From: Planctomycetes bacterium syqfu
Lineage (GTDB): Bacteria; Planctomycetota; Phycisphaerae; Phycisphaerales; Phycisphaeraceae
NCBI GenBank assembly: GCA_020974905.1
Contig: CP087563.1
Coordinates: 2,294,001-2,358,000 of the forward strand
Length of the DNA stretch: 64,000 bases
Direction of reading: 5' to 3'
In this document: in pieces, positions 636 through 55,021 of the stretch
Numbering within the stretch: position 1 is the first letter of the stretch
Layout: each line of letters starts with the position of its first letter
The notes under the pieces: model-generated
Database searches by the model: none
What the model was told of the DNA's origin: nothing
Seen by the model: the letters and a program-made list of their open reading frames with translations, nothing else
Position numbers and translations under genes: made by a program

Positions 636-3437
636 CTATTCCAGGTCAGGAAACACCAGCAGTCCGGCACGCTGCACATCACGAAAGGACGAGGTGATCG
701 GCGTCCAGGCCATCCAACTCGCATCAGCCATGCGCCGGACATTGAGATTAAAAAGCAGGCGTCGCATCTCACGGGTATCAAAACCCAAGGCTTTGAGGTC
801 CAGACTCACTTCACAAAGCCATGCATCCTTTTGCTGTGATGTGGCCATGCGCATCGCCTGTTGCGTGAGCTTGTCGGCATGTGCCTGATCCAACTGTTCA
901 CTGACGGCGATGTGGCCGGTCCCGTCGGGGAAACACTGAACCAGCAAAGTCGGGCTGGGTGACATGCCGGGGTCGGCAAAGGCAAACTCCAACCCGTCAC
1001 GTCGCCCCCATGCGCCTTGATTGACCAAGGGTTGATCCGCATCCACCTGCACCTTCACAGCCAACAGCAGGTGTGTGCCATCGGTTGCGATCCAGGCTTG
1101 TGTCTGTTTGTCGGATTTATTTTTGCCCAATGCCGTGTTGCAAGTCAGTGGCTGGGCATCGGACTGATTCCATTCACCTCTTTGAATCTGCCCATCCACC
1201 ACGATACGTCCAGCCTCAACGCGCTGAGCAGGATGCTGGGGCAACTCCTCAAGCAACTTGGCTGATGATGTGAACGGCGGCAACTTGCTGACGTCCGGGC
1301 CGAATCGCCGCGATGGTGTCGCGCGATCCGGTGACGGGTACAAGCCCATTTCATCCAATGCAGGCAGTGGCGCAAAGTCGGGAACCTGTTTAAGAATCGG
1401 GCTGTCCGACTTGAATCGGAAATCCAATCCCTGCGGATCGACGAAGCCCGGATCGCCATGGATGTGAATATTGTCCTTTAAATGCAGGGTCGGGAGAATA
1501 ACCTTCTTGTTGTAGATGACGAAGTTGCCACTGTCGACACCGATATTGTTGGCATAGGTATTGCCAAAGGCACTGTGCGCGGTGACGGGGTCTTTGCTGT
1601 CCATCCACTGTCGGAGGTCGGGATATTTTTCCTTCCAGATTGGCGTGTCGATTGGAAAGCTTTCGGTGCGTTTCCAGAGGCGGCTTTGATCGCCCATCCG
1701 TGCATGCTTGCGTGCAAAGGACTCGGGACCACGGCTGGCAAGATCCATCGACTCATCGCATTGGATGAGCAGGTTGTTGGTGATCACGTTGTTCTGACCG
1801 CCGCCGATGTGAATGCCCAGTGTTGCCATGGTGACGATGTTGCCGTCGATGGTTGTGCCGGAGGTGTAGTCGTCAAGATAAATCCCGCGACATCCCGAAC
1901 CGTGGAGTTTCTTGCCCAGGCCGTGGACGAGATTGTGTCGAATCATCGTGCCGCGTTTGGCCCAGTTGCGGGCACAGGTGTAAATCGCCCCGGCATCGGA
2001 GGTGTGCAGCAGGACATCATGGATGATATTGTTTTCGATCAGGTGGTCATTGCCATCAAAGAGAATCGCAGCATGCTCCGAATCGTGAATGAGATTACGC
2101 CTGGCAATATTCCCCACACCGTTAAGTGACACGGCCGGACGATACGTAGCGATGATATTGCCAAAGTGATGGATGTAGCAGTTTTCGACAAGATGGTTGG
2201 CTGGTTGGAGTGTTTGAATGTCGCCGGCTTCGATGAAAACACCGCCTTCACCCAGGTCGAACATATCACAACCCAATACCTTGCAGTCATTGCCTTCGAG
2301 GATGCGCATCGCCCATGAGCCGGTCTGTCGAATGACACAAGCGCTAAAGACCACGCGATCAGAGCGACGCAAACCAATGGCATGCATGCGCGTGGCCTTG
2401 AAACCCAAGTGTTCAAAGCGGATGTCCTGGGTGTCTTCGAGATTCAACAGTTGGTCGGTGACGGCCAATTGCAAAGGCTGCTTTTGAATGTCGAACTTGG
2501 GCCAGACATAAAGCAGTCGACGACGGCGGTCAATCGCCCATTCACCCGGCTCATCGAGTTCACTGATGGCATTGATCGCGCGGAACGGTTGATCGGCCTG
2601 GTACCCGTAGAGATAGGTATCCGGATCATGCAGTGCCAACGTGCCGGCGTCGGTGTCGATGCTTTTGACGGGCATGGTCTGATCCGCCCAGGGCCAATAC
2701 CATTTGCCATACATCCACAGGTCCGGCTCGGTTGACCATTGGTTGAGCTTGCTGTTGTCAAAATGGAAGATGCCCGAACGCTTGAGTTTGAATCGTCCTG
2801 ATGAGGATGACACTTCCGGGCCGGTAAATTCACCGGTCTTTGCGTAACTGTCATTGGGCCAGCGTGAGACCGTAAGTGTCTGGCCGGCTTGTGAGAGCAC
2901 CAATGGGAACTGGCGTTTGCCTTTGAACCCCGCACCACCGGAAGCAAAACCAGGCAGTTCGTCCGGGCCGATGTGTTTGAGATCAAAACAGAGTACGTGC
3001 TTGCGTGCTGCATCTGTAAGCAGTGCTTTGGCGATGTCATTGTGTTCGATGGGTTGCGTCAGTTGGACATCCCCGCGCAGGACGGTATTGCCATCAGCAG
3101 CCCCGCGATAGATCACCGGGTGCGCTGAGGTGCCCGAATCATTCTGCCCGAAGGACAAGGTTTGGGAGATGAAATAATCACCAGCCGCCAACTCGACGAT
3201 GACACCTTCAGTTGGCAGGGATTGCTTATCCTTGCGTTTGCGAATCTCATCGCGCGCCCGGGCCAATGTCGCAAACGGTCCATGCCCATTGTTTGCCGTG
3301 GCAGTTGTGCCATCGGCTTTGTCATTGCCATTGGGGGAGACGTAGAACGTCAACGGTTGGGCATGAAGTCCTGCCGCAGTGGTGGCGAGCACACATAGAA
3401 GTAATGTAATGATACGTGTCTTGAGGTTGATATACAT
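636..3437 (-). CDS. Secreted right-handed beta-helix protein with C-terminal CBM9-like domain
   Basis: The 933-residue product has a signal peptide (about residues 1-26, ending LHA). A pectate-lyase-like parallel beta-helix follows, opening with FYVSPNGNDKADG and carrying many N-rich coils such as NLIHDSEHAAILFDGND and NNIIHDV between about residues 300 and 600. From about residue 735 a CBM9/DOMON-like beta-sandwich begins (VVDGQIQRGEWNQSDAQ) and ends with RRMADASWMAW. The beta-helix fold is typical of enzymes or binding proteins acting on pectin, alginate or sulfated glycans, but no family-specific catalytic triad could be assigned. The start is ATG at 3437 with GGAAAG upstream. It lies 59 bases after the SGNH hydrolase gene in the same direction, so the two are probably co-transcribed and exported together. 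Confidence 0.85.
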   Translation of the reverse strand: MYINLKTRIITLLLCVLATTAAGLHAQPLTFYVSPNGNDKADGTTATANNGHGPFATLARARDEIRKRKDKQSLPTEGVIVELAAGDYFISQTLSFGQNDSGTSAHPVIYRGAADGNTVLRGDVQLTQPIEHNDIAKALLTDAARKHVLCFDLKHIGPDELPGFASGGAGFKGKRQFPLVLSQAGQTLTVSRWPNDSYAKTGEFTGPEVSSSSGRFKLKRSGIFHFDNSKLNQWSTEPDLWMYGKWYWPWADQTMPVKSIDTDAGTLALHDPDTYLYGYQADQPFRAINAISELDEPGEWAIDRRRRLLYVWPKFDIQKQPLQLAVTDQLLNLEDTQDIRFEHLGFKATRMHAIGLRRSDRVVFSACVIRQTGSWAMRILEGNDCKVLGCDMFDLGEGGVFIEAGDIQTLQPANHLVENCYIHHFGNIIATYRPAVSLNGVGNIARRNLIHDSEHAAILFDGNDHLIENNIIHDVLLHTSDAGAIYTCARNWAKRGTMIRHNLVHGLGKKLHGSGCRGIYLDDYTSGTTIDGNIVTMATLGIHIGGGQNNVITNNLLIQCDESMDLASRGPESFARKHARMGDQSRLWKRTESFPIDTPIWKEKYPDLRQWMDSKDPVTAHSAFGNTYANNIGVDSGNFVIYNKKVILPTLHLKDNIHIHGDPGFVDPQGLDFRFKSDSPILKQVPDFAPLPALDEMGLYPSPDRATPSRRFGPDVSKLPPFTSSAKLLEELPQHPAQRVEAGRIVVDGQIQRGEWNQSDAQPLTCNTALGKNKSDKQTQAWIATDGTHLLLAVKVQVDADQPLVNQGAWGRRDGLEFAFADPGMSPSPTLLVQCFPDGTGHIAVSEQLDQAHADKLTQQAMRMATSQQKDAWLCEVSLDLKALGFDTREMRRLLFNLNVRRMADASWMAWTPITSSFRDVQRAGLLVFPDLE

Positions 3438-3496
3438 GGATAAGGTCTTTCCGTGCCCGGTTGCGGACAGTGTTTTGAGGATTTGTCAGAACGTGT

Positions 3497-4843
3497 TTAT
3501 TTCCCGTCGGCATCAACCAATTCACCGACAATCAGCAGTGAACCGGGATACCAGTTGTTGGGTTTAAAGGCGTCGGGATTCTTGGAAAAAGCATTACGCC
3601 GGTCTTTGCGAAGCAGTGCCTGTTTATCGATGTCATCTGCCAGCGCGGTGATCTGCACGGTGTGCACTTGATTCTGGTCGGCATGGCCATCGTCATCCAG
3701 GATGGCAAACTTGCTCAGACGGTGATAGCTGCAATAGCTGTCATAACGCTCGACGGTTTGGGGGCGACCGTCAAGTGTCAGGCGGACATTGTTGGTCGAT
3801 GGGCCGATGACGTCGTAGATCATGGCCTTGGAACCGCGGAAGTTGAATTGGAGTGTGGCCCCGGGTTGGGCTTGATAGAGATCCGGCAGATTGTCGGTAA
3901 ACTTCGATGCCAGTTTGTCGGACCTGGGATCAAGCAGTGTGACCGGGCCGGTGAACATGTCCTTTGTCAATGGGATGAGCTTGGCGTTTTGCCAGTTGTC
4001 AGGATCAAGTGGTTTAGTCAGGGCATGCGATCCGACTTGACCGGCAGCTTGAATCGCGGGCATGGATCGGACGATGGCCCGCAGATACAACTGATGCCCG
4101 GTGTCCAGATAAGGATGCACACCATCACCGGCAAAAGGAATGACACCTTGGGCATTGGTCGGCAGATCACCTTCAAGATTCAACTGCTCAGCAGAGTTGG
4201 CCATGGCCTTGCGGTTGGATTTCATGACCATTTTGCCGGACTTGACCAGCGCGATGATGTCTTGGCTCATGTGAATCGACGGGATGTTGTAATGATCAGC
4301 CACCGCTTCCATGACTGATGCCGAGCGCGTCATCTTGCCTTGATTCAAATCATCCAGGTGTCGATGCGTCAGCGTGTAGACAAACACGATGTCACAAGCC
4401 GGCAGGCGACTCCATGTCTGGCGGACAATCCCTTCCATTGCGCGGATGATCCGCTGCGGGGAAGCCCGTGTATCGTTGACAGCAAATTCCACAAAGAGTA
4501 AATCCGGCTCGTGATCCAACACGTCCCGTTTGAGTCGAAAGACACCCAGGTCCGAGCCGGTGCCTCCGACGCCAGCATTGATTGCACGGAATTGAACATC
4601 AGGATATTGCTGCTCAAACCACAATGTCGTGAGCACGCGATACCCCTTCATTTGCGTAATGCTGCCCCCCATATAAGCGATGGTGACCGGCTGGGCATTC
4701 TGGAGTTTATTGAAAAAGTTGGGCAATCCGCCGCGTGGCGAACACGTGACCAGATCGCGTAATGGATAATCCGCCCAGGTCTGGCCTGGAACAAGCAGCC
4801 CAACGAGCATGACAAACAGGAACATCTTTATAGAGCGTCTCAC
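3497..4843 (-). CDS. Secreted SGNH/GDSL-type carbohydrate esterase
   Basis: A 448-residue protein with a signal peptide near its N terminus (MFLFVMLVGLLVPGQTWA). The SGNH blocks are visible: GGSIT near residue 59 with the nucleophile Ser61, GVGGTGSD near 105 (block II Gly), EFAVND near 135 (block III Asn) and DGVHPY near 265 (Asp and His of the triad). This matches esterases that remove acetyl or other acyl groups from plant or algal polysaccharide. The frame is open further upstream to 4927, but GTG at 4843 has AAAGG eight bases before it and puts the signal peptide close to the N terminus. It sits between the LacI regulator and the beta-helix gene, which suggests the product deacylates the polymer that the beta-helix protein acts on. 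Confidence 0.8.
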   Translation of the reverse strand: MRRSIKMFLFVMLVGLLVPGQTWADYPLRDLVTCSPRGGLPNFFNKLQNAQPVTIAYMGGSITQMKGYRVLTTLWFEQQYPDVQFRAINAGVGGTGSDLGVFRLKRDVLDHEPDLLFVEFAVNDTRASPQRIIRAMEGIVRQTWSRLPACDIVFVYTLTHRHLDDLNQGKMTRSASVMEAVADHYNIPSIHMSQDIIALVKSGKMVMKSNRKAMANSAEQLNLEGDLPTNAQGVIPFAGDGVHPYLDTGHQLYLRAIVRSMPAIQAAGQVGSHALTKPLDPDNWQNAKLIPLTKDMFTGPVTLLDPRSDKLASKFTDNLPDLYQAQPGATLQFNFRGSKAMIYDVIGPSTNNVRLTLDGRPQTVERYDSYCSYHRLSKFAILDDDGHADQNQVHTVQITALADDIDKQALLRKDRRNAFSKNPDAFKPNNWYPGSLLIVGELVDADGK

Positions 4844-4978
4844 ACCAATCACCTTTATTTCATTTGGCAGCACAACCATCCGTCGTGCCGAACAGGCAAA
4901 GCAACAGCGCAAACACAAGGTGGACACCCAGTGCCGTTAACATGCATGATGCTTTGCGTGACGTATTGCTTATGAACC

Positions 4979-5007
4979 GTCCTGAAACCGACGAATGGGT
5001 TCAGGAC
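4979..5007 (-). terminator. Hairpin at the end of the LacI gene
   Basis: GTCCTGA at 4979-4985 pairs with TCAGGAC at 5001-5007, and ACC/GGT extends the stem past one bulged A. The hairpin includes the stop codon of the LacI gene (5001-5003). No T-run follows on the minus strand, so it may be an attenuator or RNA-stability element and not a strong terminator. Confidence 0.35.
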
Positions 5008-6077
5008 ATACTTTGCACATTCGTTTCAAATTTCCTTGACGGCAGAACCATCTTCGGTTCGATCACCGTGGTCACTTTCGGCTCCCCGCGATGATCAATG
5101 CGCCACATCAACTGTTCAGCGGACTTGATGCCGATGGCATGCGCCTGGATATCCACAACCGCAGGCGATGGGTACAAACTCCCGATGATGCTGCGTTCGT
5201 TGTTGCAGGAAACAATATCCATATCCACGCCTGGCCGGATGCCGCGCATCAACAGATGCTGGTAGACCGCCGAGACGATGGTGTCCGAATCGACCATCAA
5301 ACCCGTCGGCCGGTCAGGTAGCGCCAAAAGCCGATCAATCAGGCGTTCCATTAAATCATGTCGAATCACCTGTGCTTCGTGGGTGATGTGCACCAGGTCA
5401 TTGTCGGTAATCAAGTCGACCTGCCTGCCGTGACTGGCCATAAATTTGGCAAACAACTCACTGCGTGTGGTAAACGAATCCGGATGCTTGCGCTGCCGCC
5501 CAAGATAGGCACAGTGCCGATGCCCCTGGTCAACCAGATACTGTCCAGCCAGTCGGACGACCGCCTGGTGATCGACAAGAACCTGATCAAACCAACGGGA
5601 CTGCGGTATGGAGACGCCGAGCACTTTCACGCAGGGATATTTCCAGACCACCTTGAGCACGCTTTCATCCGGCAGGTCCATGACCCCCATGAGAATGATG
5701 CCGTCAAAACCGTACTTGTTGACGGTGCTCAGAAAATTCTGTGATTCGTTGACACTCAGATGCACAAGCATCAAGCCGTTTTCCCCCAGCGACTCTTCGA
5801 TGCCAGCCAGCACATCGCTGTAAATCGAGTTGGCCAATAAGGAACGCTGGTTCTTGAGCATGCACAGGGCAATGCGATTGGTCCGCCGGGTTCGCCCACT
5901 GGGTAGCACGCGTCCAGCCGGACGCCTGGCGTTGTATCCCAGATCATCAATCGCCTGCCGGACCCGGCGAACGGTTTCGACGGAGACACTGGGCTTCTCA
6001 TTGATGACCATCGACACTGTCGAAAGGGAAACGCCGGCCTTCTCAGCAACATGGCGGATCAATACGTTTTTTGCCAT
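5001..6077 (-). CDS. LacI-family transcriptional regulator
   Basis: A 358-residue repressor of normal LacI length. The N-terminal helix-turn-helix (VAEKAGVSLSTVSMVIN, about residues 10-26) and the hinge helix region (RRVRQAIDDLGY, about 37-48) are intact. A periplasmic-binding-protein-like sensor fills residues 65-345 (for example DGIILMGVMD and GQYLVDQGHRHCAYLG). Start is ATG at 6077. It is divergent from the ABC transporter operon across a 213-base A+T-rich gap and is first in line with the esterase and beta-helix genes, so it probably controls both directions in response to an imported sugar. The effector is unknown. Confidence 0.9.
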   Translation of the reverse strand: MAKNVLIRHVAEKAGVSLSTVSMVINEKPSVSVETVRRVRQAIDDLGYNARRPAGRVLPSGRTRRTNRIALCMLKNQRSLLANSIYSDVLAGIEESLGENGLMLVHLSVNESQNFLSTVNKYGFDGIILMGVMDLPDESVLKVVWKYPCVKVLGVSIPQSRWFDQVLVDHQAVVRLAGQYLVDQGHRHCAYLGRQRKHPDSFTTRSELFAKFMASHGRQVDLITDNDLVHITHEAQVIRHDLMERLIDRLLALPDRPTGLMVDSDTIVSAVYQHLLMRGIRPGVDMDIVSCNNERSIIGSLYPSPAVVDIQAHAIGIKSAEQLMWRIDHRGEPKVTTVIEPKMVLPSRKFETNVQSMS

Positions 6078-6220
6078 CTCCGGTCACTTTCATACAAAAC
6101 TTTTTTGAAGCCCTGGTTGCGATGCAAAATTATACGCCGCGGTTACAAAGCAAGTCAATTAACCAGAAATTAAAATCGAAATTTTTTCATAAACAATGAA
6201 ATAAAAGAATATACAAATAC

Positions 6221-6248
6221 TTGCAATATTAAATTATCGTCCTATTAT
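6221..6248 (+). promoter_or_regulatory. Putative sigma-70 promoter of the ABC transporter operon
   Basis: TTGCAA at 6221-6226 and TATTAT at 6243-6248 are separated by 16 bases, in an A+T-rich stretch 43 bases before the first transporter gene. No clear LacI-type palindrome was recognised in the divergent gap. Confidence 0.4.
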
Positions 6249-6290
6249 TCCCCAGACCCGCAAATATGGACCCGCTCTGAGTACCTGAAA

Positions 6291-7469
6291 ATGAACGTTT
6301 TGGCCCCCGTAAAAAACCAGGAAAACCAGTCGTCAATGCCTGACGACAAAGGGATTAAGTCACGAGCCGGACAGTTGAGCCAGTGGCAGTTGACCTGCCT
6401 TCGCTTCACGTCCCATCGCCTGGCGGTGGTGTGCCTGTACGTGCTGGCGGTGATGTACGGGCTGGCGGTTTTCGCAGAATTTTTTGCGCCGATGGGGGCC
6501 AATCAAAAAATTCTTTCCACCGCCTACGCCCCGCCTCAACCCATTTACTGGACACCATCGCATGGCCTGCACACCACGCTGCTGCATCGTCAGCTTGATC
6601 CGCAGACGCTGGCGCGCACCTATAGCGTCGCCCCGAACGCCACGGTGCCACTGGGCTTTTTGGTCAAGGGACATCCCTATCGACTCTGGGGGTTGATCCC
6701 GATGCAGCGACACTTTTTTGGTGTCGATCAGGCGGCATTTGACGCGCAATATCCTGATGCCAAAGCCAAGCCCACCTTTTTCCTGCTGGGTTCGGACAAG
6801 TATGGCCAGGATATTCTCAGTCGCATTCTCTATGGTGCTCGCGTTTCACTGTCGGTGGGGCTGGTGGCAATCGTCATGACATTTATCCTGGGTGTGACCA
6901 TCGGAGGCATCTCCGGGTACATGGGTGGCTGGGTGGACACGATGGTGCAGCGCATCATTGAGATGATCAACGGCTTTCCGAAGTTACCGTTGTGGCTGGC
7001 GGCCGGTGCGGCGTTACCCAATGACTGGTCACCGTTGAAGGTGTACTTTGCCATTACGTTGGTATTGAGCCTGTTGGGATGGACGGGCTTGGCGCGCGTG
7101 GTGCGTGGCAAGTTCCTGTCTCTTCGCGAGGAAGACTACGTGGTGGCAGCCAATCTCATGGGCGCCAGTCACGGGCGAATCATTTTCCGACACCTGCTGC
7201 CGGGCTTTACCAGCCACATCATTATTTCGCTGACGATGAGCGTGCCGGGCATGATCCTGGGTGAGACGACATTGAGTTTTCTGGGGCTTGGTCTGCGTCC
7301 GCCATTGGTGAGTTGGGGCGTGATGCTTCAGGACTGTCTGAGCATGGAGGTGGTGGCCAATTACCCGTGGCTGATGCTGCCTGCGGTGTTCATCGTGTTG
7401 ATCGTATTGAGTTTTAATTTTGCAGGTGATGGCCTGCGCGATGCAGCGGACCCTTACAGTTCACGCTGA
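6291..7469 (+). CDS. Peptide/oligosaccharide ABC transporter permease, DppC/OppC type
   Basis: A 392-residue inner-membrane permease. It has one transmembrane segment near residues 45-65, a large extracytoplasmic loop of about 100 residues, then GSDKYGQDILSRI near 165 leading into the five-helix permease core. The cytoplasmic coupling (EAA-type) loop is seen at about 278-300 (VVAANLMGASHGRIIFRHLLP). The last helices contain GETTLSFLGLGLRPP, a hallmark of OppC/DppC. It pairs with the permease half of the fusion gene at 9617-12946. Start ATG 6291 is the first in frame, with only a weak ribosome-binding site. It is the first gene of a four-gene importer operon. Confidence 0.9.
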   Translation: MNVLAPVKNQENQSSMPDDKGIKSRAGQLSQWQLTCLRFTSHRLAVVCLYVLAVMYGLAVFAEFFAPMGANQKILSTAYAPPQPIYWTPSHGLHTTLLHRQLDPQTLARTYSVAPNATVPLGFLVKGHPYRLWGLIPMQRHFFGVDQAAFDAQYPDAKAKPTFFLLGSDKYGQDILSRILYGARVSLSVGLVAIVMTFILGVTIGGISGYMGGWVDTMVQRIIEMINGFPKLPLWLAAGAALPNDWSPLKVYFAITLVLSLLGWTGLARVVRGKFLSLREEDYVVAANLMGASHGRIIFRHLLPGFTSHIIISLTMSVPGMILGETTLSFLGLGLRPPLVSWGVMLQDCLSMEVVANYPWLMLPAVFIVLIVLSFNFAGDGLRDAADPYSSR

Positions 7470-7485
7470 TCGGATTGAGGAAGCT

Positions 7486-8550
7486 ATGGCAACGTTAACC
7501 CATATGCCTGAATTGATCGAGCCCAGTGATACCGAGCATGATCCGGTGCTGGAAGTCCACGATCTGCATGTGCATTTTAAGACACACGAAGGCTTGATCC
7601 GCGCGGTCAACGGCGTGAGCTTTGATGTGCCACGCGGCAGTATCGTGGGGATTGTCGGTGAATCGGGCTGTGGCAAGAGTGTCACCGCCTACTCCATTCT
7701 GAGACTGATCCAGAAGCCGGGCCTGATCGCAGGCGGGCAGATGCACTTTCACCCGCTGCATCAACCGAGTTTTGATATCTGCCAATTGGCCGAAAAATCC
7801 CGCGAATTGTTTGACATGCGCGGTGGATTGGCAAGCATGATTTTTCAGGAACCCATGACCGCACTCTCACCGGTGCATACCGTGGGCAACCAGATTGTTG
7901 AAGCCATCCGCCTGCACAAGTCGGTCACCAAAAAGCAGGCCAGACAAATGGCGATCGACATGCTTGCCAAGGTCGGCATTCCCGGTCCCGAGCGTCGCAT
8001 CGACCAGTACACCTTCGAACTCTCCGGCGGGATGCGCTGCCGCGTGATGATTGCCATGGCTTTGGTCTGTCAGCCGCAACTGCTCATTGCTGATGAACCG
8101 ACCACCGCACTGGATGTCACCATCCAGGCACAGATCATGCGCTTGATCAAGCAACTCCAGGAAGAGATGAAAACCAGCACCATTCTCATCACCCATGATC
8201 TTGGCGTGGTCGGGCAGATGTGCGATCACGTGGTGGTGATGTACATGGGACGCGTGGTGGAGACCGGGCCGGTGCGACGGGTCATTCATCATCCGCGTCA
8301 TCCCTACACACAAGGCTTGCTCGCATCATTACCCAGCCTGGCAGTCGAACACGAGAAGCTGCCATCCATCACCGGCAGTGTCCCGAGCTTAACGAACCTG
8401 CCATCAGGCTGTGCGTTTCACCCGCGATGCCCACATGCCCAGGCCGGGTTGTGTGATGTGAACGGACCACCGGAACTTGAATCACTGAATTCACAACAGG
8501 CCGCAGCCTGTCTGCGCGTACACGAGATAGAAGATGATCAGGCACAATAA
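7486..8550 (+). CDS. ABC transporter ATPase, DppD/OppD type
   Basis: A 354-residue ATPase. Walker A is GESGCGKS at about 58-65, the signature LSGGM at about 179-183, and Walker B LLIADEPT near 200-207, followed by the conserved ITHDLGVV. The C-terminal oligopeptide-transporter extension is present (PSGCAFHPRCPHAQAGLC), containing the cysteines typical of OppD/DppD. ATG at 7486 is chosen because GAGGA lies just upstream and it follows the permease stop by 16 bases. It forms the nucleotide-binding pair with the next gene and energises uptake. Confidence 0.92.
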   Translation: MATLTHMPELIEPSDTEHDPVLEVHDLHVHFKTHEGLIRAVNGVSFDVPRGSIVGIVGESGCGKSVTAYSILRLIQKPGLIAGGQMHFHPLHQPSFDICQLAEKSRELFDMRGGLASMIFQEPMTALSPVHTVGNQIVEAIRLHKSVTKKQARQMAIDMLAKVGIPGPERRIDQYTFELSGGMRCRVMIAMALVCQPQLLIADEPTTALDVTIQAQIMRLIKQLQEEMKTSTILITHDLGVVGQMCDHVVVMYMGRVVETGPVRRVIHHPRHPYTQGLLASLPSLAVEHEKLPSITGSVPSLTNLPSGCAFHPRCPHAQAGLCDVNGPPELESLNSQQAAACLRVHEIEDDQAQ

Positions 8551-9580
8551 ACAACCTATTTTATCCGTCAAAGACCTGTGCGTGTTCTTCCCGATCATGT
8601 CGCAGGGTTTGATCAAGCGTCGCATCGGCAGCATCAAGGCTGTCAATCATGTGAGCTTTGATCTGCACCACGGCCAGACACTGGGCCTCGTCGGTGAGTC
8701 GGGCTGTGGCAAAACCACCACGGGGCGTGCCATCCTCCGCGCACTGTCACCTGACAGCGGCAAGGTTCACTTCCAAACCGACCAAGGCTACGTCGATCTG
8801 GCCAAACTGGATCACAAGGCACTCATCCCCCTGCGCACACAGATGCAAATGATCTTTCAAGATCCCTTTGCATCCTTAAACCCACGCATGACTGTCGGCT
8901 CACTGGTCCGTGAACCGCTGGATATTCACGGTGTCGGCACGATGAAGCAACGTAACGACATGGTCAAGCAAATGCTCGATCGCGTGGGCATTCGGCCGGA
9001 GTATCGCACGCGTTATCCGCATGCCTTTTCCGGCGGGCAGCGTCAACGCATCGTCATCGCACGTGCGTTGATCCTTGAACCGTCCCTGATCGTTGCTGAC
9101 GAAGCGGTCTCGGCGTTGGATGTCTCCGTGCAGGCCCAGGTGATCAACCTTCTGGCTGAACTCAAGGACGAGATGAACCTGACGATGATCTTCATCGCCC
9201 ATGATTTAAGCGTGGTTCGGCATATCTGTGACGAGGTGGCGGTGATGTATGCCGGGCGCATTGTCGAACAGGCTCCGACAGCAGAGCTCTTTGCCGACCC
9301 GCATCATCCCTATACGCAGACCCTGCTCAGCGCGGTGCCCAATCCCGATCCGGATGTTCCGATGAATCTGGGGGTGTCCGGTGAAGTGGCGGACGTGGGC
9401 AATCTGCCGACGGGCTGTGCGTTTAACCCGCGTTGTGAGCAGTGTGAATCAATCTGCAAAGAACAGGTGCCACGTTATCGCAGCACCGACGGACGTCGCG
9501 TGATTGCCTGTCATATTCAGCCGGAGATGGATGAAGAATTACTTAATGTCACCGTGTCTGCGATGCAACCCAAGTGTTGA
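8534..9580 (+). CDS. ABC transporter ATPase, DppF/OppF type
   Basis: A 348-residue ATPase whose start overlaps the end of the OppD-type gene by 17 bases, implying translational coupling. Walker A GESGCGKT lies at about 54-61, the signature FSGGQRQR near 165, Walker [13 protein letters not shown] near 185, then IAHDLSVV. The C terminus again has the oligopeptide-family cysteine segment ([17 protein letters not shown]). With its partner it makes the ATPase dimer of a family-5 importer. Confidence 0.92.
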
Positions 9581-9616
9581 AGTTCAGGCCATGAAAAACA
9601 TGACCGTGAGTGAAAG

Positions 9617-12600
9617 ATGATCAAGACGTTACTCAGACATTCTGTTCGAACTTTGCTGGTGATTGCTGGATTACTTGTGATCCTGATCACCTGCGCCCAG
9701 TTCCTGTCACCGACGCTGCCGCGTGAGCAGTCCGAGGTGGATCCCGATGTGCTTAAGACCGCTGAGGCCATGCGTCACCCGCAGATCGACATCGATAACC
9801 CGATGGTGCTTTACCGGGATGTGGACTATTCACAGGGCAAACAGGCCGCATGGTATCCCAAGGGGCAATCACCGTTATTGGAACAACTGGTCCAAAATGG
9901 CGAGTTACCCCCCGTGGATCAACGTGTCGGCCCTGAGCCTGCGGTGTTCAAAGCGGTCGAAGGTATCGGACAATATGGCGGCTCCTGGCTGCGCGTTGCC
10001 AGCAATCGCAATACGGTCACGGCGTTTATGAATTACAGCATCCGTGCCACCGCCCTGGTGCGCTATTCGCCCAATGGTTATCCGATCGTCCCGGGTCTTG
10101 CCAAATCATACGAAGTCAACGATGACTCGACGGTCTTTACGTTCCATCTGCGTCAAGGCGTCAAATGGTCCGACGGGCATCCCTTCACGGCGGACGACAT
10201 CCTGTTCTGGTGGAACTACTGGGCCAAGTGGCAAGATCCGGACACCGGCGCCAAGATCGGCTACATCCCCGAAACCATGAAAATCAAGGGACAAATCGGC
10301 GAAGTCCGCAAGCTTGATGATTACACCGTCGAGTATGTCTTCCCGCAGACCAATGCCATCTTCCTGGAATACATGGCCTCGGCGCGCGGTGTGTTATACA
10401 CGGCTGTCCCCGCGCATTATCTCAAAAAGTATCACCCGGCCTTTGCTGATCGACAGGAACTGGAACAGATCAAAAAGCATTACCAACTGGCGACGGACCA
10501 GGCGCTTTACAACTGGGCAGTGGACCTGAACAATCCGCTGCGCCCGTCACTGTCGCCGTGGATCATGCGAACCGAACGCACGACCGGTCCCTTCACCATG
10601 GTGCGCAATCCGTTTTATTGGGCAGTGGATGAACAGGGCAACCAACTGCCGTACATGGATCGCGTGGTCTACCAGATCAAGAATCCGGGTATGGAAAATC
10701 TGGCGTTGACCAGTGGGCAGACCACCTTCCAGAATGGTAAGTTTGCCGACTACACCCTGTTCATGTCACAACGCCAACAAGCCGGCTACGAGGTGTTGCA
10801 CTGGTATCCGTCAAGCCGCAGCGAACTGGTGATCTATCCCAATCTCAATCGAAAAGTCGAAACAGACGATCCGCAGACCCAGTTCAAGCACGACACGCTC
10901 AACGACCGGCGATTCCGTCGTGCGCTGTCCATGGCCATTGATCGACAGCGCATCATTGATGCCGAATGGGCCGGGGTTGGCAAGCCGTCACAAGTCGAAC
11001 CGGGGCCGGCATCGCTTTATCACAGTGACGACTTGGCAAACAGCTTTGTCAAACTCGATCCCGATCAAGCCAACGCGTTGCTCAATGACATGGGGCTGAC
11101 CCAACGGGATAGTGAAGGCTATCGCACGGACGATCAAGGCCGACGCCTGACCTTTTTCATGATCACCGGCACGGGTCAGGCGATCACGCGCATCTGCCAG
11201 TTTATTCTTGAAGACTGGGAAAAAATTGGTATCCGCGTCATGCTCCTGGAGCGCCCGGGACGACTTTACCAAATTGAAAAGTTCGGCCTGACTGCCGACC
11301 TGCTCGTCGGCACGGACAATTCATCTCACAATCCGCTGACCGGTGGCATTTTCTTCCCGGACAACGGTCACTGTTCCTATGCCAGCGCTTTTGGCAGTTG
11401 GTACAAAAATGGTGGTCTGCTTGGGCAGACCCAGGAAGGTATCGCTCCGCCGGTCGGTCACCCGTTGCGACGGATCATGCAGATTTTTGACCATGCCTGC
11501 ACCATTGCTGACCCGCACCAGCGAGCCAAGGTGTTCAAGCCGGCGCTGGAACTCTTTGCTGACGAGGTGTATGCCATTTCCATCGCGACACCCCCGCCGC
11601 AGATTTACGTGGTCGATGAGCATCTGCGCAATGTGCCTCATGAGGCGATCTCCAGTTTCATCGACTATCGCACGCCCAACAATGCCGTGCCGGAGATGTG
11701 GTATCTGGATCAGGTTCAGCAGGATGTCTCCGAGCAGGCCGCGATCGTGGATGAAATCTCTCACATCACCATGCGTGATGCCGTGGCCGGTTCTGACAAT
11801 CAGACATCCGCGTTGACACAAGACAATGTCAGGCAATCCAGCCGATGGGTCGGGGGGCTCATCCGCTGGATGCTGACATTGACGGTCGTTGCCGCAGTGC
11901 TGCTGATGGGCATTCGTCATCCGTTTGTGATTCGCCGTCTGATGATCATGGTGCCCACGTTGCTGGTGATTTCGGTGATCGTCTTTACGATGATCCAATT
12001 GCCACCGGGGGACTATCTCACGGCCCGGATCAACCAATTGCAGCTATCGGGCCAACAGGTATCCGACCAGGAGATTGCGCAACTGCGTGAACAATTCCAT
12101 CTCAATGATTCGATGGTGATGCGGTATTTCAAGTGGATGGGGTTCGATTATTTCCGCACGTGGGATGCGACAGACAAGGGCCTGCTTCAAGGTGATCTGG
12201 GCCTGTCGATGTCAGAGATGAAACCGGTCAACGAGGTTGTCGGCGATCGCGTGTTGCTGACGATGCTCATATCGCTGGGGACCATTCTTCTGACCTGGAT
12301 ATTGGCACTACCAATCGGGATTTATTCGGCAGTGAAACAGTATTCGCCCTCGGATTACGTTCTGACTTTTCTTGGTTTCACCGGCATGTGCATCCCGCAG
12401 TTCCTGTTGGCACTGGTTGCCATTTACCTGGCTGACCGCTACGTCGGCATTCAAGTCACCGGCCTGTTTTCCGTGGAGTATGCCCTGACACCGGCATGGT
12501 CGATGGGCAAGGTGGTGGATCTGCTCAAGCACATTTGGCTGCCGATCCTGCTATTGGGTGTCGGGGGGACGGCCGGGATGATCCGCATCATGCGTGCCAA

Positions 12601-12946
12601 CCTGCTGGATGAACTGAAAAAGCCCTATGTCGTCACCGCGCGTGCCAAGGGCGTCGGGCCGATCAAGTTACTGCTCAAGTATCCCGTACGTATCGCGCTC
12701 AACCCGTTCATCTCCGGCATCGGCCACATCTTCCCGGACCTGATCTCCGGCGGCGCGATCGTGGCCATGATCCTGAGCCTGCCGACTGTCGGCCCGCTGA
12801 TGCTCGACGCAGTGATGATCGAGGACACCCAACTCGCAGGCTCCATGCTCATGGTCCTGAGTTTACTGGGCATCTTCGGCGTCCTGGTCAGCGACCTGTT
12901 ACTCATTGCCATCGACCCAAGAATCCGGCTGGGAGCCAAAGGATAA
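9617..12946 (+). CDS. Fusion of family-5 solute-binding protein and DppB/OppB-type permease
   Basis: The 1109-residue product equals the sum of two normally separate proteins. Residues about 13-30 form an N-terminal membrane anchor. Residues about 120-700 are an extracellular solute-binding protein of family 5 ([55 protein letters not shown]; the second and third are contiguous landmarks, not catalytic sites). After a linker, a transmembrane segment lies near 748-766, and from about 770 a DppB-type permease begins ([29 protein letters not shown]), with its coupling loop near 1007 ([16 protein letters not shown]). There is no stop or frameshift between the parts. The binding domain is therefore tethered to its own permease. 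With the three upstream genes it completes the importer. The cargo may be an oligosaccharide, judging by the neighbours. Confidence 0.88.
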
Positions 12947-13064
12947 AACCATGCAACAGATCAGCCGTTTATCAATACAACCCCGCCAACCCCAGTCTGG
13001 AAGGAGCGCACCAATGATTACGAATCGACGCAACAATCATTCAAACCCTATGGAGGTTATCACG

Positions 13065-13985
13065 ATGCAACCCGCTGTTAAGTCAAACAATCATCCCCGC
13101 CACAGATACACAAATCCAGCCTTTACGCTCATTGAACTGTTGGTGGTCATCTCAATCATCTCACTGTTGATTTCGATCCTCCTGCCGGCATTGGGTAAGG
13201 CACGCAAAAGCGCCACCGCCATCAAATGCATGTCCAACATGCGCGGGGTCGGTGTCGCCATGCACATGTATGCCAACGATTTTAAAGATTGGCTGCCGGG
13301 TAATGAGGGACATTTGTCACGTTCCACCGGCGGCACGGCAGGCGCATGGCGCGCGTCGCGTCACTGGACGGGCCAGTTGATCGTCCCCGGCTATGTCCAG
13401 ACCAGACTCGTCGACCCATCCTACAACACCTACGCGGATGGAGACGTTCTCATGCAGGCCGGTTTGCCAGCCAACTCCGTGGTCCACTGCCCGGAAAGTC
13501 AGCCCGTACCCGGCGGCTACAGCGGTGCCCATCCAAACATGAAGTGTCTGACCACCACCTATGGTCTGCGCAAGGGGTTTCACTTGAATCATTTTGAGAC
13601 CGGCAAAGGTGGGAACAATCTCGAACAATGGTTCCATAACGACGGCAACACGCCCGAAAGCCTGGGACAAAGTAAAACATGGAACGGGCAAGCTGCCAAA
13701 CTCACCACCGTAGCGATGAAAACACCGCTGATCGCAGACACCAGTGCCGTCATCGGCACCAAGGGGTTGGATGAATTTAAGGAATGGACCATCTCCGCTT
13801 CGAGTATGTCATCGCTGGGAACATATGCCGGTATCGTTCACATGAGACACAACACTTCAGCCAATGGCTGGTTCCCCGACGGTCATGCCGCAGCATTGGG
13901 TGGCCAGGCTTGGGTCGACCTCATCCCCGGCACATGGAACCAGGTTCCATGTACTGTCGATATGATCACCATTTTCAATCAATAA
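13065..13985 (+). CDS. H-X9-DG type pseudopilin-like protein
   Basis: A 306-residue protein with a type II/IV prepilin N terminus: a short basic leader, then the methylation motif [13 protein letters not shown] and a hydrophobic helix ending [12 protein letters not shown]. The C-terminal half has the planctomycete H-X9-DG signature ([12 protein letters not shown]). ATG 13065 has GGAGG eight bases upstream; ATG 13014 also has AAGGAG, so a leader 17 residues longer is possible. Such proteins are thought to be exported through a type II-like system, and their genes often accompany polysaccharide operons. It follows the transporter fusion gene directly and is followed by a sugar isomerase-like gene. 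Confidence 0.88.
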
Positions 13986-47292: not shown

Positions 47293-48267
47293 ATGCACCT
47301 GTTGGACGGCCAATCGATTCTCATTACCGGTGGCACCGGCTCGTTCGGCAAACGCTTTGTTCATACGATTCTCAATCAGACCCAAGTCCGACGCGTGGTC
47401 ATCTACAGCCGTGATGAACTCAAACAATGGGAAATGGCCCAGCTTTACCCCAATGATGAACGGCTCCGCTTTTTCCTGGGAGATGTGCGCGATGAAGCAC
47501 GTCTGCTGCGTGCATTCGACACGGTGGATTACGTGGTCCATGCCGCGGCATTAAAACAGGTCCCGGCAGCAGAATACAATCCGTTTGAAGCGGTCAAGAC
47601 CAACATCCTCGGCGCCAAGAACGTCATTGATGCCGCCATTGATCGCGGCGTCAAGAAAGTTGTGGCGTTGAGCACCGACAAAGCCTCAAGCCCGATCAAC
47701 CTGTACGGCGCGACCAAGTTCGTCAGCGACAAACTGTTCATCGATGGCAACGCCTATGCCGGCAGCCGTGTCACACGCTTCGCCAATGTCCGCTACGGCA
47801 ATGTCGTCGGCAGCCGAGGCAGTGTCATCCCGCTGTTCAAAAAGCTTGCAGCCACAGGTGTCCTGCCCATCACCGATGCCGACATGACACGCTTCTGGAT
47901 CACTCTGGATCATGCCGTACAGATGGTGCTCGATGCACTGGAACTGATGTATGGCGGCGAGATTTTTGTGCCCAAAATCCCGAGCATGAAACTGGTCGAT
48001 CTAGCTAAAGCCATCGCCCCGGACGCCGAATTGAAATTCATCGGCATGCGGCCCGGCGAAAAGCTCCACGAGGAATTGATCAGCCAACATGACGCCCATC
48101 GCTGCATGGATATCGGTAAATGCTACGTCATGATGCCGGAGATGGAGTGGTTTGAACCGCAGCGCATTGAAGGCAAACCGGTCAGTCCCGACTTCGCCTA
48201 TACCAGCGACCGCAATGAACAATGGCTAAGCACCGAGCAACTCATGGAGATGATCAAGCATGTCTGA
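47293..48267 (+). CDS. pseB: UDP-N-acetylglucosamine 4,6-dehydratase (inverting)
   Basis: A 324-residue short-chain dehydrogenase-type enzyme that starts pseudaminic acid synthesis: it dehydrates UDP-GlcNAc and inverts C5. The NADP loop is ITGGTGSFGKR near residue 11. The catalytic set matches the family: STDK with Asp129 and Lys130, and Tyr138 with Lys142 in YGATK. RYGNVVGSRGSVIPLF and MTRFWITLDHAV are typical of FlaA1/PseB. ATG 47293 has GGAG six bases upstream. It is first in a nine-gene operon and overlaps the next gene by eight bases. Confidence 0.94.
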   Translation: MHLLDGQSILITGGTGSFGKRFVHTILNQTQVRRVVIYSRDELKQWEMAQLYPNDERLRFFLGDVRDEARLLRAFDTVDYVVHAAALKQVPAAEYNPFEAVKTNILGAKNVIDAAIDRGVKKVVALSTDKASSPINLYGATKFVSDKLFIDGNAYAGSRVTRFANVRYGNVVGSRGSVIPLFKKLAATGVLPITDADMTRFWITLDHAVQMVLDALELMYGGEIFVPKIPSMKLVDLAKAIAPDAELKFIGMRPGEKLHEELISQHDAHRCMDIGKCYVMMPEMEWFEPQRIEGKPVSPDFAYTSDRNEQWLSTEQLMEMIKHV

Positions 48268-49408
48268 ATCCTTCATCCCTTACGGGCGTCAGAGCCTGGA
48301 TGAATCGGATATTCAGCAGGTCATCGACGTGTTGCGCAGTGATTTTCTGACGACCGGACCAGCTGTCAACGCATTTGAACAACAGCTTTGCCGATGCTCC
48401 CAAGCCCCCCATGCCGTGGCCGTCAGTTCGGGCACTGCCGCGTTGCATACTGCCTATTTTGCCGCGGGACTCCAGGCCGGTGACGAAATCATCACCACAC
48501 CGCTGACGTTTGCAGCCACCGCCAATGCGGCGTTGTACCTTGGGGCCAAGGTTCGTTTTGTGGATGTCGATCCGGCGACAGGCAATATCAATCCATCCGC
48601 CATTGAAACCGCCATCACGGATCGTACACGTCTGATCGTGCCCGTGGATTACACCGGTTTGCCAGCGGATTACGATACCATTTCAACCATCGCCCAAAAG
48701 CACCATCTAACCGTGGTTGCCGACGCCGCCCATTCGTTGGGGGCCACCTATCACGAACGCCCGGTCGGCACATTGGCGGATATGACAGCCACCAGCTTCC
48801 ATCCCGTCAAACCGATCACCACTGCCGAGGGCGGTGCCGTGTTGACATCCAACAGCCAATATGCGATTCGGGCAGCACGTTTTCGAACCCATGGGGTGAC
48901 CCGCGATCCTGAACTGTTGCATGAGCAGCAGGGACCATGGTGGTACGAAATGCACGACTTGGGTTTGAACTACCGCATTTCGGATATTCACTGTGCGCTG
49001 GGTGTCAGTCAACTTCGCAAACTCGAATCGTTCATCACGCGCCGCCGACAGATCGCCGAAATGTACACCCAACAACTGGCAGATCAGGACGATTTGATTT
49101 TGCCGGTGACACCGGAGCATTGTCAATCAGGTTGGCATCTATATGTCATCCGCATTCGCCAAGGTGCAGCCCGTCGCAAGGCTGTCGTCGAGTATCTTCA
49201 CCAGCACAAAATCGGCGTGCAGATTCACTATATCCCGGTGCACTATCATCCGTACTATCAGCAACTGGGTTATCAACGCGGCAGCCTGCCCCATGCCGAA
49301 ACTTTTTACGATCAATGCATCTCGCTGCCGATTTTCCCAGCCATGACCGATGACGATGTGGCCCGTGTCGTTGAACAAATCAAGCTGGCTTTACAGGTCA
49401 CTTGGTAA
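48260..49408 (+). CDS. pseC: UDP-4-keto-6-deoxy-sugar aminotransferase
   Basis: A 382-residue PLP enzyme of the DegT/DnrJ/EryC1 family. Lys184 in SFHPVKPITT is the expected PLP lysine and Asp155 in VVADAAHSLG the PLP-nitrogen partner. Other family marks are FLTTGPAVNAFE and VSSGTAALHTAY. It aminates the PseB product at C4 using glutamate. It overlaps pseB by eight bases, so the two steps are translationally coupled. Unstable keto intermediate transfer fits such coupling. Confidence 0.93.
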   Translation: MSESFIPYGRQSLDESDIQQVIDVLRSDFLTTGPAVNAFEQQLCRCSQAPHAVAVSSGTAALHTAYFAAGLQAGDEIITTPLTFAATANAALYLGAKVRFVDVDPATGNINPSAIETAITDRTRLIVPVDYTGLPADYDTISTIAQKHHLTVVADAAHSLGATYHERPVGTLADMTATSFHPVKPITTAEGGAVLTSNSQYAIRAARFRTHGVTRDPELLHEQQGPWWYEMHDLGLNYRISDIHCALGVSQLRKLESFITRRRQIAEMYTQQLADQDDLILPVTPEHCQSGWHLYVIRIRQGAARRKAVVEYLHQHKIGVQIHYIPVHYHPYYQQLGYQRGSLPHAETFYDQCISLPIFPAMTDDDVARVVEQIKLALQVTW

Positions 49409-49436
49409 CCGCATTGTTCAGGTATACTGTTTCACA

Positions 49437-50141
49437 ATGAATTTACACGAAAAACACAGAAACATCGCCATCATCCCCGCACGTGGAGGAAGCAAGCGGA
49501 TTCCAGGCAAGAACATCCGTGACTTCTGCGGCAAACCCATCATCGCTTATTCCATCCAAGCCGCCCTGGACAGCGATCTGTTTGAGCAAGTCATCGTCTC
49601 GACCGATTCACAGGACATTGCAGACGTGGCTGTGCAGTATGGCGCACAGGTTCCTTTTCTTCGGCCTGCCGACTTGTCGGGCGATATCATCGGCACAAAC
49701 GACGTTGTGATCCATGCCTTAAACTGGCTCAAGGAGCAAGGGATCAGCTCCCCCTTTGCCTGCTGCATCTACGCCACCGCCCCATTTGTTCAAAGCCAAT
49801 ATCTGAAGCAGGGATTGGACACGCTCAAGCAATCGCAATCCCACATGGCGTTTTCCGTCACCACGTTTGCCTTCCCAATCTGGCGGAGCCTACGCATCAA
49901 TGACCACGACCTACTGGAGCCCAATTGGCCCGAACACGAACAATCACGCTCACAGGATTTGCCCGAAGCCTATCACGATGCCGGCCAGTTTTACTGGTAT
50001 TGCGTTGAAAAACTGCTGATAACCAAGGCTTCCCCCTACTCAGGTGCTGTCCCCGTCCATCTGCCGCGTCACCTGGTGCAGGACATCGATACTCCAGAGG
50101 ATTGGCAACGGGCGGAATACATGTACAAGGCCATGCATTGA
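49437..50141 (+). CDS. pseF: Pseudaminic acid cytidylyltransferase
   Basis: A 234-residue CMP-sugar synthetase. The CTP-binding loop is AIIPARGGSKRIPGKNIRDF at residues 10-29. AATD-like and acceptor marks are VIVSTDSQDIADVA, YATAPFVQSQYL and DAGQFYWY, and the end has the DIDTPEDW motif that binds metal. It activates Pse to CMP-Pse. ATG 49437 is preferred to earlier in-frame starts because the CTP loop sits at a normal distance. The distance from pseC is 28 bases. Confidence 0.92.
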   Translation: MNLHEKHRNIAIIPARGGSKRIPGKNIRDFCGKPIIAYSIQAALDSDLFEQVIVSTDSQDIADVAVQYGAQVPFLRPADLSGDIIGTNDVVIHALNWLKEQGISSPFACCIYATAPFVQSQYLKQGLDTLKQSQSHMAFSVTTFAFPIWRSLRINDHDLLEPNWPEHEQSRSQDLPEAYHDAGQFYWYCVEKLLITKASPYSGAVPVHLPRHLVQDIDTPEDWQRAEYMYKAMH

Positions 50142-50187
50142 CTTACCGATACGAACACCCTGAACAACTGTCCAAAAGGAACTGACC

Positions 50188-50814
50188 ATGGCAAACACAT
50201 TTCAAACCGAACAGGAAAAGTTCTGGGCTGGCGAATTCGGCGATCAGTACATCGATCGCAATACATACGCCAAAGAGTTGACGGCACGCCTTGCCCTGTT
50301 TGCCAAAATCCTGGCTCACACCCGCGATGTCCAAAGCCTCATCGAGTTCGGCGCCAACATCGGCAACAACCTCAAAGCCCTCAAGCAACTCTTCCCACAA
50401 CTGAATCTCTCGGCGATTGAAATCAACCAGAAGGCTGCAGACGCCTTAAACCAATGGGGCCACGCACAGGTCTTCCATCAATCCATTCTCGATTTCAAGC
50501 CTCAGCAGCAATACGATCTGTCCATGACATCCGGCGTGTTGATTCACATCAATCCCGACATGCTCAACAAGGTCTACGACGCACTTTACCAATCTTCTGG
50601 TCGGTACATCTGCCTGATTGAGTATTACAACCCCAGTCCTGTTGAAGTGAAATACCGCAACCAGGAGGGTAAACTTTTCAAGCGGGATTTTGCTGGTGAA
50701 ATGCTCGACCGCTTTTCGGATTTGTCGCTGATCAGTTACGGCTTTGGCTATCATCGCGATCCGAATTACCCACTGGATGATCTGACATGGTTTCTGCTCG
50801 AGAAACGATCGTAA
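50188..50814 (+). CDS. Pseudaminic acid biosynthesis-associated methylase
   Basis: A 208-residue SAM-dependent methyltransferase. It matches the small methylases often found inside pseudaminic acid clusters: FWAGEFGDQYIDRN near residue 11, the SAM loop LIEFGANIGNNLKAL near 51, and SGVLIHINPD near 115. It probably methylates the sugar or a derivative, but the target has not been shown for most relatives. ATG 50188 has AAGGA seven bases upstream. Confidence 0.85.
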   Translation: MANTFQTEQEKFWAGEFGDQYIDRNTYAKELTARLALFAKILAHTRDVQSLIEFGANIGNNLKALKQLFPQLNLSAIEINQKAADALNQWGHAQVFHQSILDFKPQQQYDLSMTSGVLIHINPDMLNKVYDALYQSSGRYICLIEYYNPSPVEVKYRNQEGKLFKRDFAGEMLDRFSDLSLISYGFGYHRDPNYPLDDLTWFLLEKRS

Positions 50815-50915
50815 GACCAGACCCTACTTGCTTGCCGAATGTCGCCCTCAAGGTTTGTGATATGATTGTCTATTGATCAAAACACAACCGTCACCGTGAT
50901 TGTATGGAGCAACTG

Positions 50916-52070
50916 ATGATTCGTTATTGCACACAATGTGTGATGCCTGAAACCAAGCCTGATCTTTTTTTTGATGATCATGGCGTTTGCTGTGCCTGTT
51001 TGAATTACATGAATCGCAATCAAGTCGATTGGGACAGTCGCAGGAAAGAACTACTTGAGATCCTTGACCGTTACCGGTCGGCGAATGGGTCCAACTGGGA
51101 CTGTATTATCCCGGTGAGTGGTGGTAAGGATAGTACTTACCAAGTTATTCGCTTGCTCGAACTGGGCATGAATCCGCTTTGTGTCACCGCCACCACCTGC
51201 GATTTATCCGATATTGGTCGTCACAATATTGAAAACATCAAGAAGTTGGGTGTGGATTATGTGGAGTTCACATCCAACCGTGTGGTTCGTGCCAAAATGA
51301 ATCGAATCGGCTTAAAACAGGTCGGCGACATTTCTTGGCCTGAACATGCTGGGATATTCACCATCCCGGTCCGTGCCGCAGTGCAGTTCAATGTGCCATT
51401 GATCGTCTGGGGTGAAAACTCTCAGAATGAGTATGGCGGACCCGCCGCCGCCAGTAAAAACAATGTCCTGACGCGCCGTTGGCTCGAGGAGTTCGGCGGT
51501 CTTTTGGGCCTTCGCGTATCGGATATCATCGGCCAGGAAGGCATCGAAGCCCGACACCTGATCCCGTTTACCTATCCTGATAACGATGACCTGCAACGTG
51601 TCGGTGTCACGGGTATTTTCCTGGGCTACTACCTGCCGTGGGACGGTTATGCCAATGCCTTGCTTGCACAGGGTCATGGTCTGAAAACGTTCCATAACAC
51701 CGTTGAAGGCTCTGTTGTCAACTACGAAAATCTGGACAACCACCAAACCGGTATCCACGATTATTTCAAGTTCCTGAAATTTGGTTTCGGACGTGCCACC
51801 GACATCGCCTGCATGCATATCCGACGCGGTAGAATCACTCGCAAAGACGGCATGCAACTGGTCAAAATGCACGATGGCAAATTTCCCTGGACTTATCTGG
51901 ACAAACCGGTGGACAAAATTCTCGAACCAATGGATCTGTCCGTCGATGAATTTATCCAGATCTGTGATCGTTTCACAAACAAGAAAATTTTCAAAAAAGA
52001 TGCCCATGGCAAACTGCTCAAGGATCGCCATGGCAATCTGACCAAGATCAACGACGATAACGTGGACTAG
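50916..52070 (+). CDS. pseA: N-acetyl sugar amidotransferase (PseA-like)
   Basis: A 384-residue PP-loop ATPase. The N terminus has Cys pairs (YCTQC at 4-8, CCAC at 25-28) expected to bind zinc. The ATP-binding PP motif SGGKDS lies at 68-73. It follows the family in its HTGIHDYFKFLKFGFGR segment. PseA makes the acetamidino form of pseudaminic acid from the acetamido form, with ammonia from a glutaminase. ATG 50916 is chosen because GGAG lies six bases upstream and the family begins just before the first Cys; ATG 50904 is an alternative. Confidence 0.88.
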   Translation: MIRYCTQCVMPETKPDLFFDDHGVCCACLNYMNRNQVDWDSRRKELLEILDRYRSANGSNWDCIIPVSGGKDSTYQVIRLLELGMNPLCVTATTCDLSDIGRHNIENIKKLGVDYVEFTSNRVVRAKMNRIGLKQVGDISWPEHAGIFTIPVRAAVQFNVPLIVWGENSQNEYGGPAAASKNNVLTRRWLEEFGGLLGLRVSDIIGQEGIEARHLIPFTYPDNDDLQRVGVTGIFLGYYLPWDGYANALLAQGHGLKTFHNTVEGSVVNYENLDNHQTGIHDYFKFLKFGFGRATDIACMHIRRGRITRKDGMQLVKMHDGKFPWTYLDKPVDKILEPMDLSVDEFIQICDRFTNKKIFKKDAHGKLLKDRHGNLTKINDDNVD

Positions 52071-52080
52071 GAACCAATCA

Positions 52081-52698
52081 GTGCAAGTAGTGGTCATCGA
52101 TTACGGCATGGGCAATTTACAGTCGGTCCTGCGAGCCTTTGAGGAATGCGGTGCGGATGTGATCATCAGCGATCAACCCGCATCACTGAAAACAGCTTCT
52201 CATATTGTTCTGCCCGGCGTCGGAGCGTTCAGCGATGCCATGAACCAGATCCATGCAATGGGTTGGCACGATGCCATCCGTCACGAAGCGATCCAATCGC
52301 ATGTCCCGCTACTGGGTATCTGTCTGGGCATGCAACTGCTGGCTGACACCGGGTGTGAAGGTGGCCAGACGCAAGGCCTTGGACTGGTTCCGGGGACCGT
52401 CCAAAAGCTTGTACCCGATACGCCGCAGACACATATCCCGCATGTGGGTTGGAATGAATTTCATCGCGTGCAGGATCATCCATTGTTTGAAGGCATTGCC
52501 GACGGGACGGATTTTTACTTCGTGCACAGCTACCACTTCAAACCTGCATCCGGGCAACATGCAATCGGCAGCACGCCGTACTGTGGGGGGTTTGTCTCGG
52601 CCGTGCAAAGTGACAATATCTTCGGTGTTCAGTTTCACCCGGAAAAAAGCCATCGCCCGGGCTTTCGCATCATTGAGAATTTTTTAAACATCAACTGA
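52081..52698 (+). CDS. hisH: HisH-like glutamine amidotransferase for sugar amidation
   Basis: A 205-residue class I glutaminase. The triad is complete: Cys81 (GICLGMQ), His186 and Glu188 (QFHPEKS). The oxyanion segment is LPGVGAF at 44-50. In histidine synthesis HisH feeds ammonia to HisF. Here it sits between pseA and a HisF-like gene, away from other his genes, and so should feed ammonia to PseA through that partner. GTG 52081 has AGGA nine bases upstream. Confidence 0.88.
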   Translation: MQVVVIDYGMGNLQSVLRAFEECGADVIISDQPASLKTASHIVLPGVGAFSDAMNQIHAMGWHDAIRHEAIQSHVPLLGICLGMQLLADTGCEGGQTQGLGLVPGTVQKLVPDTPQTHIPHVGWNEFHRVQDHPLFEGIADGTDFYFVHSYHFKPASGQHAIGSTPYCGGFVSAVQSDNIFGVQFHPEKSHRPGFRIIENFLNIN

Positions 52699-52711
52699 AA
52701 GGATTGGAACA

Positions 52712-53482: not shown

Positions 53483-53496
53483 ACCATTCCAAAGGT

Positions 53497-54993: not shown

Positions 54994-55021
54994 AAATGAC
55001 ACTGGTTCAGGAGAATGATCG

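Follow-up and report, generated by a model that had tools for sequence, protein, structure and literature searches.

The window studied here, a stretch of 64,000 nucleotides from Planctomycetes bacterium syqfu, raises the question of whether the receptor and the permease of an Opp/Dpp-type importer can be one and the same protein, and if so, what such an importer would carry and how it would work. On the + strand, 9617..12946 is one uninterrupted ORF of 1109 aa, an oppAB fusion of a family-5 solute-binding protein (SBP) and an OppB-type permease. Pfam places SBP_bac_5 (PF00496) at aa 157-551 (E 1e-56) and, in the permease half, BPD_transp_1_N (PF19300) at 770-883 and BPD_transp_1 (PF00528) at 897-1104. 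The open frame and its domains thus bear out the sequence-only reading, which had proposed a 1109-residue SBP-permease fusion with the SBP first. From the N- to the C-terminus, the protein consists of a membrane helix, the SBP, a flexible linker, an extra membrane helix and a complete OppB/DppB permease:

9617..12946, + strand: oppAB fusion gene (ORF, Pfam, AlphaFold2 model, relatives).
9620..9706, + strand: N-terminal membrane helix, aa 2-30, hydropathic core 12-30, an anchor or signal peptide with no conserved lipobox cysteine (hydropathy, AlphaFold2).
9866..11719, + strand: solute-binding domain, aa 84-701, predicted periplasmic (Pfam; structural matches 5ipw and SPH1118, Z 42-43).
11762..11830, + strand: low-confidence, probably flexible linker, aa 716-738 (AlphaFold2 pLDDT <50 at 723-742).
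11831..11917, + strand: extra membrane helix, aa 739-767, followed by the positive R-H-P-F-V-I-R-R (hydropathy, AlphaFold2; without counterpart in unfused SBPs).
11921..12931, + strand: OppB/DppB-type permease domain, aa 769-1105 (Pfam; structures 8j5q_B, Z 28.9, and 8z1y_A, Z 28.1).

The AlphaFold2 model of the whole chain reached a pLDDT of 91.1 and a pTM of 0.88 with 107 aligned sequences (nine sequences gave a pLDDT of 49), and confidence was low only at 723-742 and in the last three residues. The receptor part of the model resembles 5ipw and SPH1118 (Z 42-43), and OppB and DppB of solved complexes match its permease part (Z 24-29), so that in the model the SBP and OppB/DppB folds are both intact and matched over separate ranges.

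A long frame of this kind could be an artefact, in which a sequencing or assembly error removed the stop between two adjacent genes, and SBP and permease genes do adjoin in unfused relatives. However, the genome, a single contig of 7.38 Mb, contains a second full-length fusion copy, 71% identical, at a distance of about 240 kb, and the single full-length frame recurs in other genomes, in more than 50 relatives. A stop or frameshift at 11830-11940, which the sequence-only reading had named as the result that would undo it, is thereby excluded as an explanation for the fusion family. The added helix, conserved in the fusions and absent from unfused SBPs, and the grouping of the fused proteins as one clade in both the SBP tree and the permease tree argue in the same direction. 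As the relatives already refute the artefact reading, we regard its probability as negligible. What we consider highly probable is a genuine, functional-looking and ancient gene fusion, joined via the linker and the added helix, which pairs with OppC, OppD and OppF and most likely has an oligosaccharide as cargo.

The SBP tree groups all fused proteins in a single clade (support 100). The same is true of all fused rows in the permease tree (SH-aLRT 100 with locus L099 inside the clade, 100/100 with L099 counted as fused). L099 is the sole 'split' row within the fused clade, and we rejected it as a secondary split: it retains the linker-helix coding sequence in a shifted frame and is a frameshifted fusion still encoding the linker helix. 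The nearest unfused relatives (Chloroflexota, Rhizobiales, Rokubacteria and a few Planctomycetota) have one gene each for SBP and permease, and the two mostly adjoin. Because the fused proteins form one fully supported clade in both trees, the sequences argue for a single fusion event, after which the SBP and permease halves descended jointly.

The full-length fusion was found in 7 of 392 genomes of the phylum, four of the seven belonging to the window's own family. In the class, 20 of 397 genomes had a match at E 1e-100 or better, and most of these matches are full-length single frames; in the same scan the match in G737 was an adjacent unfused pair, and G552, of the same genus as the window genome, gave no match. 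An all-bacteria scan (one genome per species) with an alignment of nine sequences yielded about 45 fusion loci, including a few records already obtained in other scans; a single-protein query gave no matches. As judged from record titles, these loci span about ten phyla: Planctomycetota (including Phycisphaerae), Verrucomicrobiota (the most), Lentisphaerota, Kiritimatiellota, Hydrogenedentota, Spirochaetota, Gemmatimonadota, Desulfobacterota (Electrothrix), Raymondbacteria and Abditibacteriota (Abditibacterium), although many of the relatives are metagenome bins for which individual taxonomic labels may be wrong. The question posed at the outset of whether the fusion is confined to one clade therefore has two answers: it is for the genes, which form a single clade in the trees, but not for the organisms, which come from many phyla. 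The patchy presence together with the range of phyla suggests transfer or repeated loss. Apparent frames of 1000-1127 aa with a match at five loci (L053-L057) were rejected as fusions, four of them being separate proteins and the remaining one an SBP that contains a large insert but lacks a permease. The SBP-like frame of 1055 aa at L053:2973-6137 (+), in G079, has two matching halves around a large insert, and the permease is absent.

The junction also sets the fused proteins apart. In the hydropathy analysis, the segments belonging to the permease itself are preceded by one at 12-30 and an additional one at 748-766, and AlphaFold2 predicts helices at 739-767 and 769-794, in agreement with the earlier proposal of an extra transmembrane segment ahead of the permease. 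Wherever the junction motif could be located in a fused protein, such a segment lies just ahead of the permease, with a positively charged [R/K]-H-P motif right after it; the unfused SBPs compared with them have no clear C-terminal hydrophobic segment. We suggest that the fused chain would start in the cytoplasm and cross the membrane once, which would place the receptor domain in the periplasm. Because the receptor would be outside after one helix, a further crossing would be required ahead of the first helix of OppB. The added helix would bring the chain back inside, and the first helix of OppB would then start inside, as in a normal OppB. A lipoprotein cysteine at the right place is absent from nearly all fused N-termini; among the unfused SBPs it occurs in about one quarter to one third, and others have cleavable-looking signals. 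The receptor would remain tethered whether or not the N-terminal helix is cleaved.

The gene could also be fused while two proteins act, either by cleavage of the linker or by additional production of the permease from an internal start. The linker is long and predicted to be flexible, and in-frame ATG codons are present around the junction of the window gene, but a start with a Shine-Dalgarno-like motif nearby was seen in just 3 of 50 and none is conserved before the permease, while the common ATG sits within the first permease helix. Moreover, the added helix would be pointless were receptor and permease separated. We find two separate products unlikely, and favor a single chain.

The fusion gene is the last of four importer genes on the same strand, and Pfam confirms the oppC, oppD and oppF genes that had been proposed as its neighbors, upstream at 6291-9580:

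6291..7469, + strand: oppC, partner permease, 392 aa (OppC_N, PF12911, and BPD_transp_1, PF00528).
7486..8550, + strand: oppD, ATPase, with a likely ATG start within the TTG ORF 7420-8550 (ABC_tran, PF00005, and oligo_HPY, PF08352).
8534..9580, + strand: oppF, ATPase (ABC_tran, PF00005, and oligo_HPY, PF08352).
5001..6077, - strand: divergent LacI-family regulator, the probable controller of the operon (Pfam; role judged from position).

No clear LacI operator was found between the regulator and oppC, and no tRNA or Rfam family was found in the window. The operon has a family-5 SBP, OppB- and OppC-type permeases and two ATPases with oligo_HPY, as expected of the importer family; the separate SBP that is usual, but not strictly defining, for PepT importers is replaced by an SBP within the permease chain. 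The whole unit is duplicated in the genome (L038, G000:C1:2539000-2557000, and window 636-12946), and both units consist of a beta-helix protein, a divergent regulator-sized gene, which is of the LacI family in the window and similar in size in the second copy, and then oppC-oppD-oppF-oppAB. In most relatives the gene order is AB-C-D-F as opposed to C-D-F-AB in the window genome. No recognizable oppC was found just downstream of the fusion at L070, L076, L080, L088 and L108 (Opitutaceae and relatives), L078 and L101, with OSU-00C loci among such cases. Of all the loci that at first seemed to be without oppC, some were ORF-picking errors, but several Opitutaceae and OSU-00C cases hold, and there the partner subunits may be encoded elsewhere. 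In G540, whose genome is a single contig and belongs to the same family, one protein of 709 aa beside the fused OppAB comprises both OppD and OppF (L146:3837-5963 (-)), so that this importer would need only three polypeptides.

Elsewhere in the window, the gene directly after the operon on the same strand (13000-13985, start approximate) encodes a protein whose N-terminus resembles that of type IV pilins. A cluster at 47293-56086 (Polysacc_synt_2, DegT aminotransferase, acetyltransferase, NeuB) resembles a nonulosonic acid pathway. The segment 58001-64000 has a G+C content of 0.41-0.44 as compared to mostly 0.47-0.56 elsewhere, and encodes a member of the beta-lactamase family as well as a protein of 1225 aa that matches CBM_4_9 weakly.

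With the operon in place, the fused subunit AB and the separate OppC, OppD and OppF would make up a heteromeric ABC importer. As OppB occurs once per heteromeric complex, there would be one tethered receptor per translocator, kept at its own translocator and handing over cargo without free diffusion. The receptor-to-translocator ratio would accordingly be fixed at one-to-one, and the tether would be expected to make transport independent of receptor concentration and free of competition from unbound receptor. In comparison, the DppA protein of E. coli activates its translocator but is not stably bound to it in the resting state (PMC12136057). Alternatively, the fused receptor could be a sensor or regulator of transport with free SBPs supplying the cargo, and other family-5 SBPs are indeed present elsewhere in the window genome, just as some fusion loci are without a downstream oppC. 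However, neither of the two operons of this genome was found to contain a separate family-5 SBP, and the receptor fold is intact in the model, which is why we consider a sensory or regulatory role very improbable and retain the tethered receptor as the supplier of cargo.

As to the nature of this cargo, overall SBP similarity and gene context lead us to think that it is probably an oligosaccharide, likely from polysaccharide breakdown, rather than a peptide. The solved SBPs nearest to the fused receptor are 5ipw and the pectin-binding SPH1118, with the galactoside-binding MelB also among the nearest. Among solved receptors whose ligand is known, SPH1118 of Sphingomonas sp. A1 comes closest (Z about 42 over some 590 residues), and it is likewise found near genes annotated as oligopeptide transporters; it was itself annotated as oligopeptide-binding, yet binds oligogalacturonate (PMC9314435). 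SPH1118 is, however, a free protein, and 15 of its 16 ligand contacts differ in the fusion; since only one (D483) is kept, the ligand should differ from galacturonate oligomers. The neighbors of the window gene include an apiosidase-like protein, GH92, GH20, pectate-lyase-like proteins and the beta-helix protein, and those of the relatives include GH95, GH2, fucosidase, sulfatases, and heparinase-like and alginate-lyase-like proteins. LacI regulators and polysaccharide-degrading enzymes thus surround the window gene and many relatives, counted here as occurrence and not as enrichment. An ordinary importer of oligopeptides with an incidental fusion would fit the matches of permease and ATPases to Opp/Dpp models, and peptides are frequent ligands of family-5 SBPs. 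Against peptides stand the pectin- and galactoside-binding proteins among the nearest solved SBPs and the recurrent regulators and enzymes just described. Furthermore, none of the NCBIfam Opp/Dpp/Nik equivalogs reached its cut-off (best Opp4B, 209 bits vs 450), which makes the 'Opp' label weak evidence. We give a peptide cargo perhaps one part in five of our belief, and the label is probably misleading about an importer that we take to be for oligosaccharides.

The covalent joining of a receptor to its permease is already known as a design and is not a new principle; here it is found in a different, heteromeric family. GlnPQ, a glutamine importer of Lactococcus lactis, carries receptor domains in the same polypeptide as the permease, fused to its N-terminal end (PMC8025302), and in OpuA, the glycine-betaine importer of L. 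lactis, a covalent link joins receptor and permease, with a hydrophobic membrane anchor as well as a short linker (PMC11065425). The frame and the model show the same covalent link to a permease subunit in the fusion, on the N-terminal side as in GlnPQ. GlnPQ, however, imports amino acids and carries a tandem pair of small SBDs, which makes four per complex, whereas in the fusion a single large family-5 receptor is attached to one of two non-identical permease subunits; OpuA belongs to a different transporter family and carries two linked SBDs per complex. The OpuA receptor is also of a different fold family from the family-5 SBP. In place of an amino-acid or betaine importer with a homodimeric permease, we find a member of the Opp/Dpp family with a distinct OppC. 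DppABCDF and OppABCDF of E. coli and OppABCD of M. tuberculosis share the permease and receptor families of the fusion (permease matches 8z1y_A and 8j5q_B) but, unlike it, have a separate receptor. A literature search, with most subscription papers outside its coverage, found no report of a family-5/OppBC receptor-permease fusion.

Fusions of receptor and permease lend themselves to studying how the kinetics of an importer are set by the concentration and stoichiometry of its receptor. The examples studied, GlnPQ and OpuA, are amino-acid and betaine importers, and the same design is now seen in the large family-5/Opp importers, where the heteromer would set the receptor number at one, as compared to two in OpuA and four in GlnPQ, and where close unfused relatives make a direct comparison of fused and unfused forms possible. 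We see an even chance that these proteins constitute a class of heteromeric ABC importers that is widespread and so far undescribed, in which each translocator has exactly one permanently tethered, doubly membrane-anchored receptor, that the class serves polysaccharide-derived oligosaccharides in bacteria of the Planctomycetes-Verrucomicrobia group, and that a single fusion was followed by its spread from phylum to phylum. 'Oligopeptide transporter' labels in the phyla that carry the fusion may conceal sugar importers.
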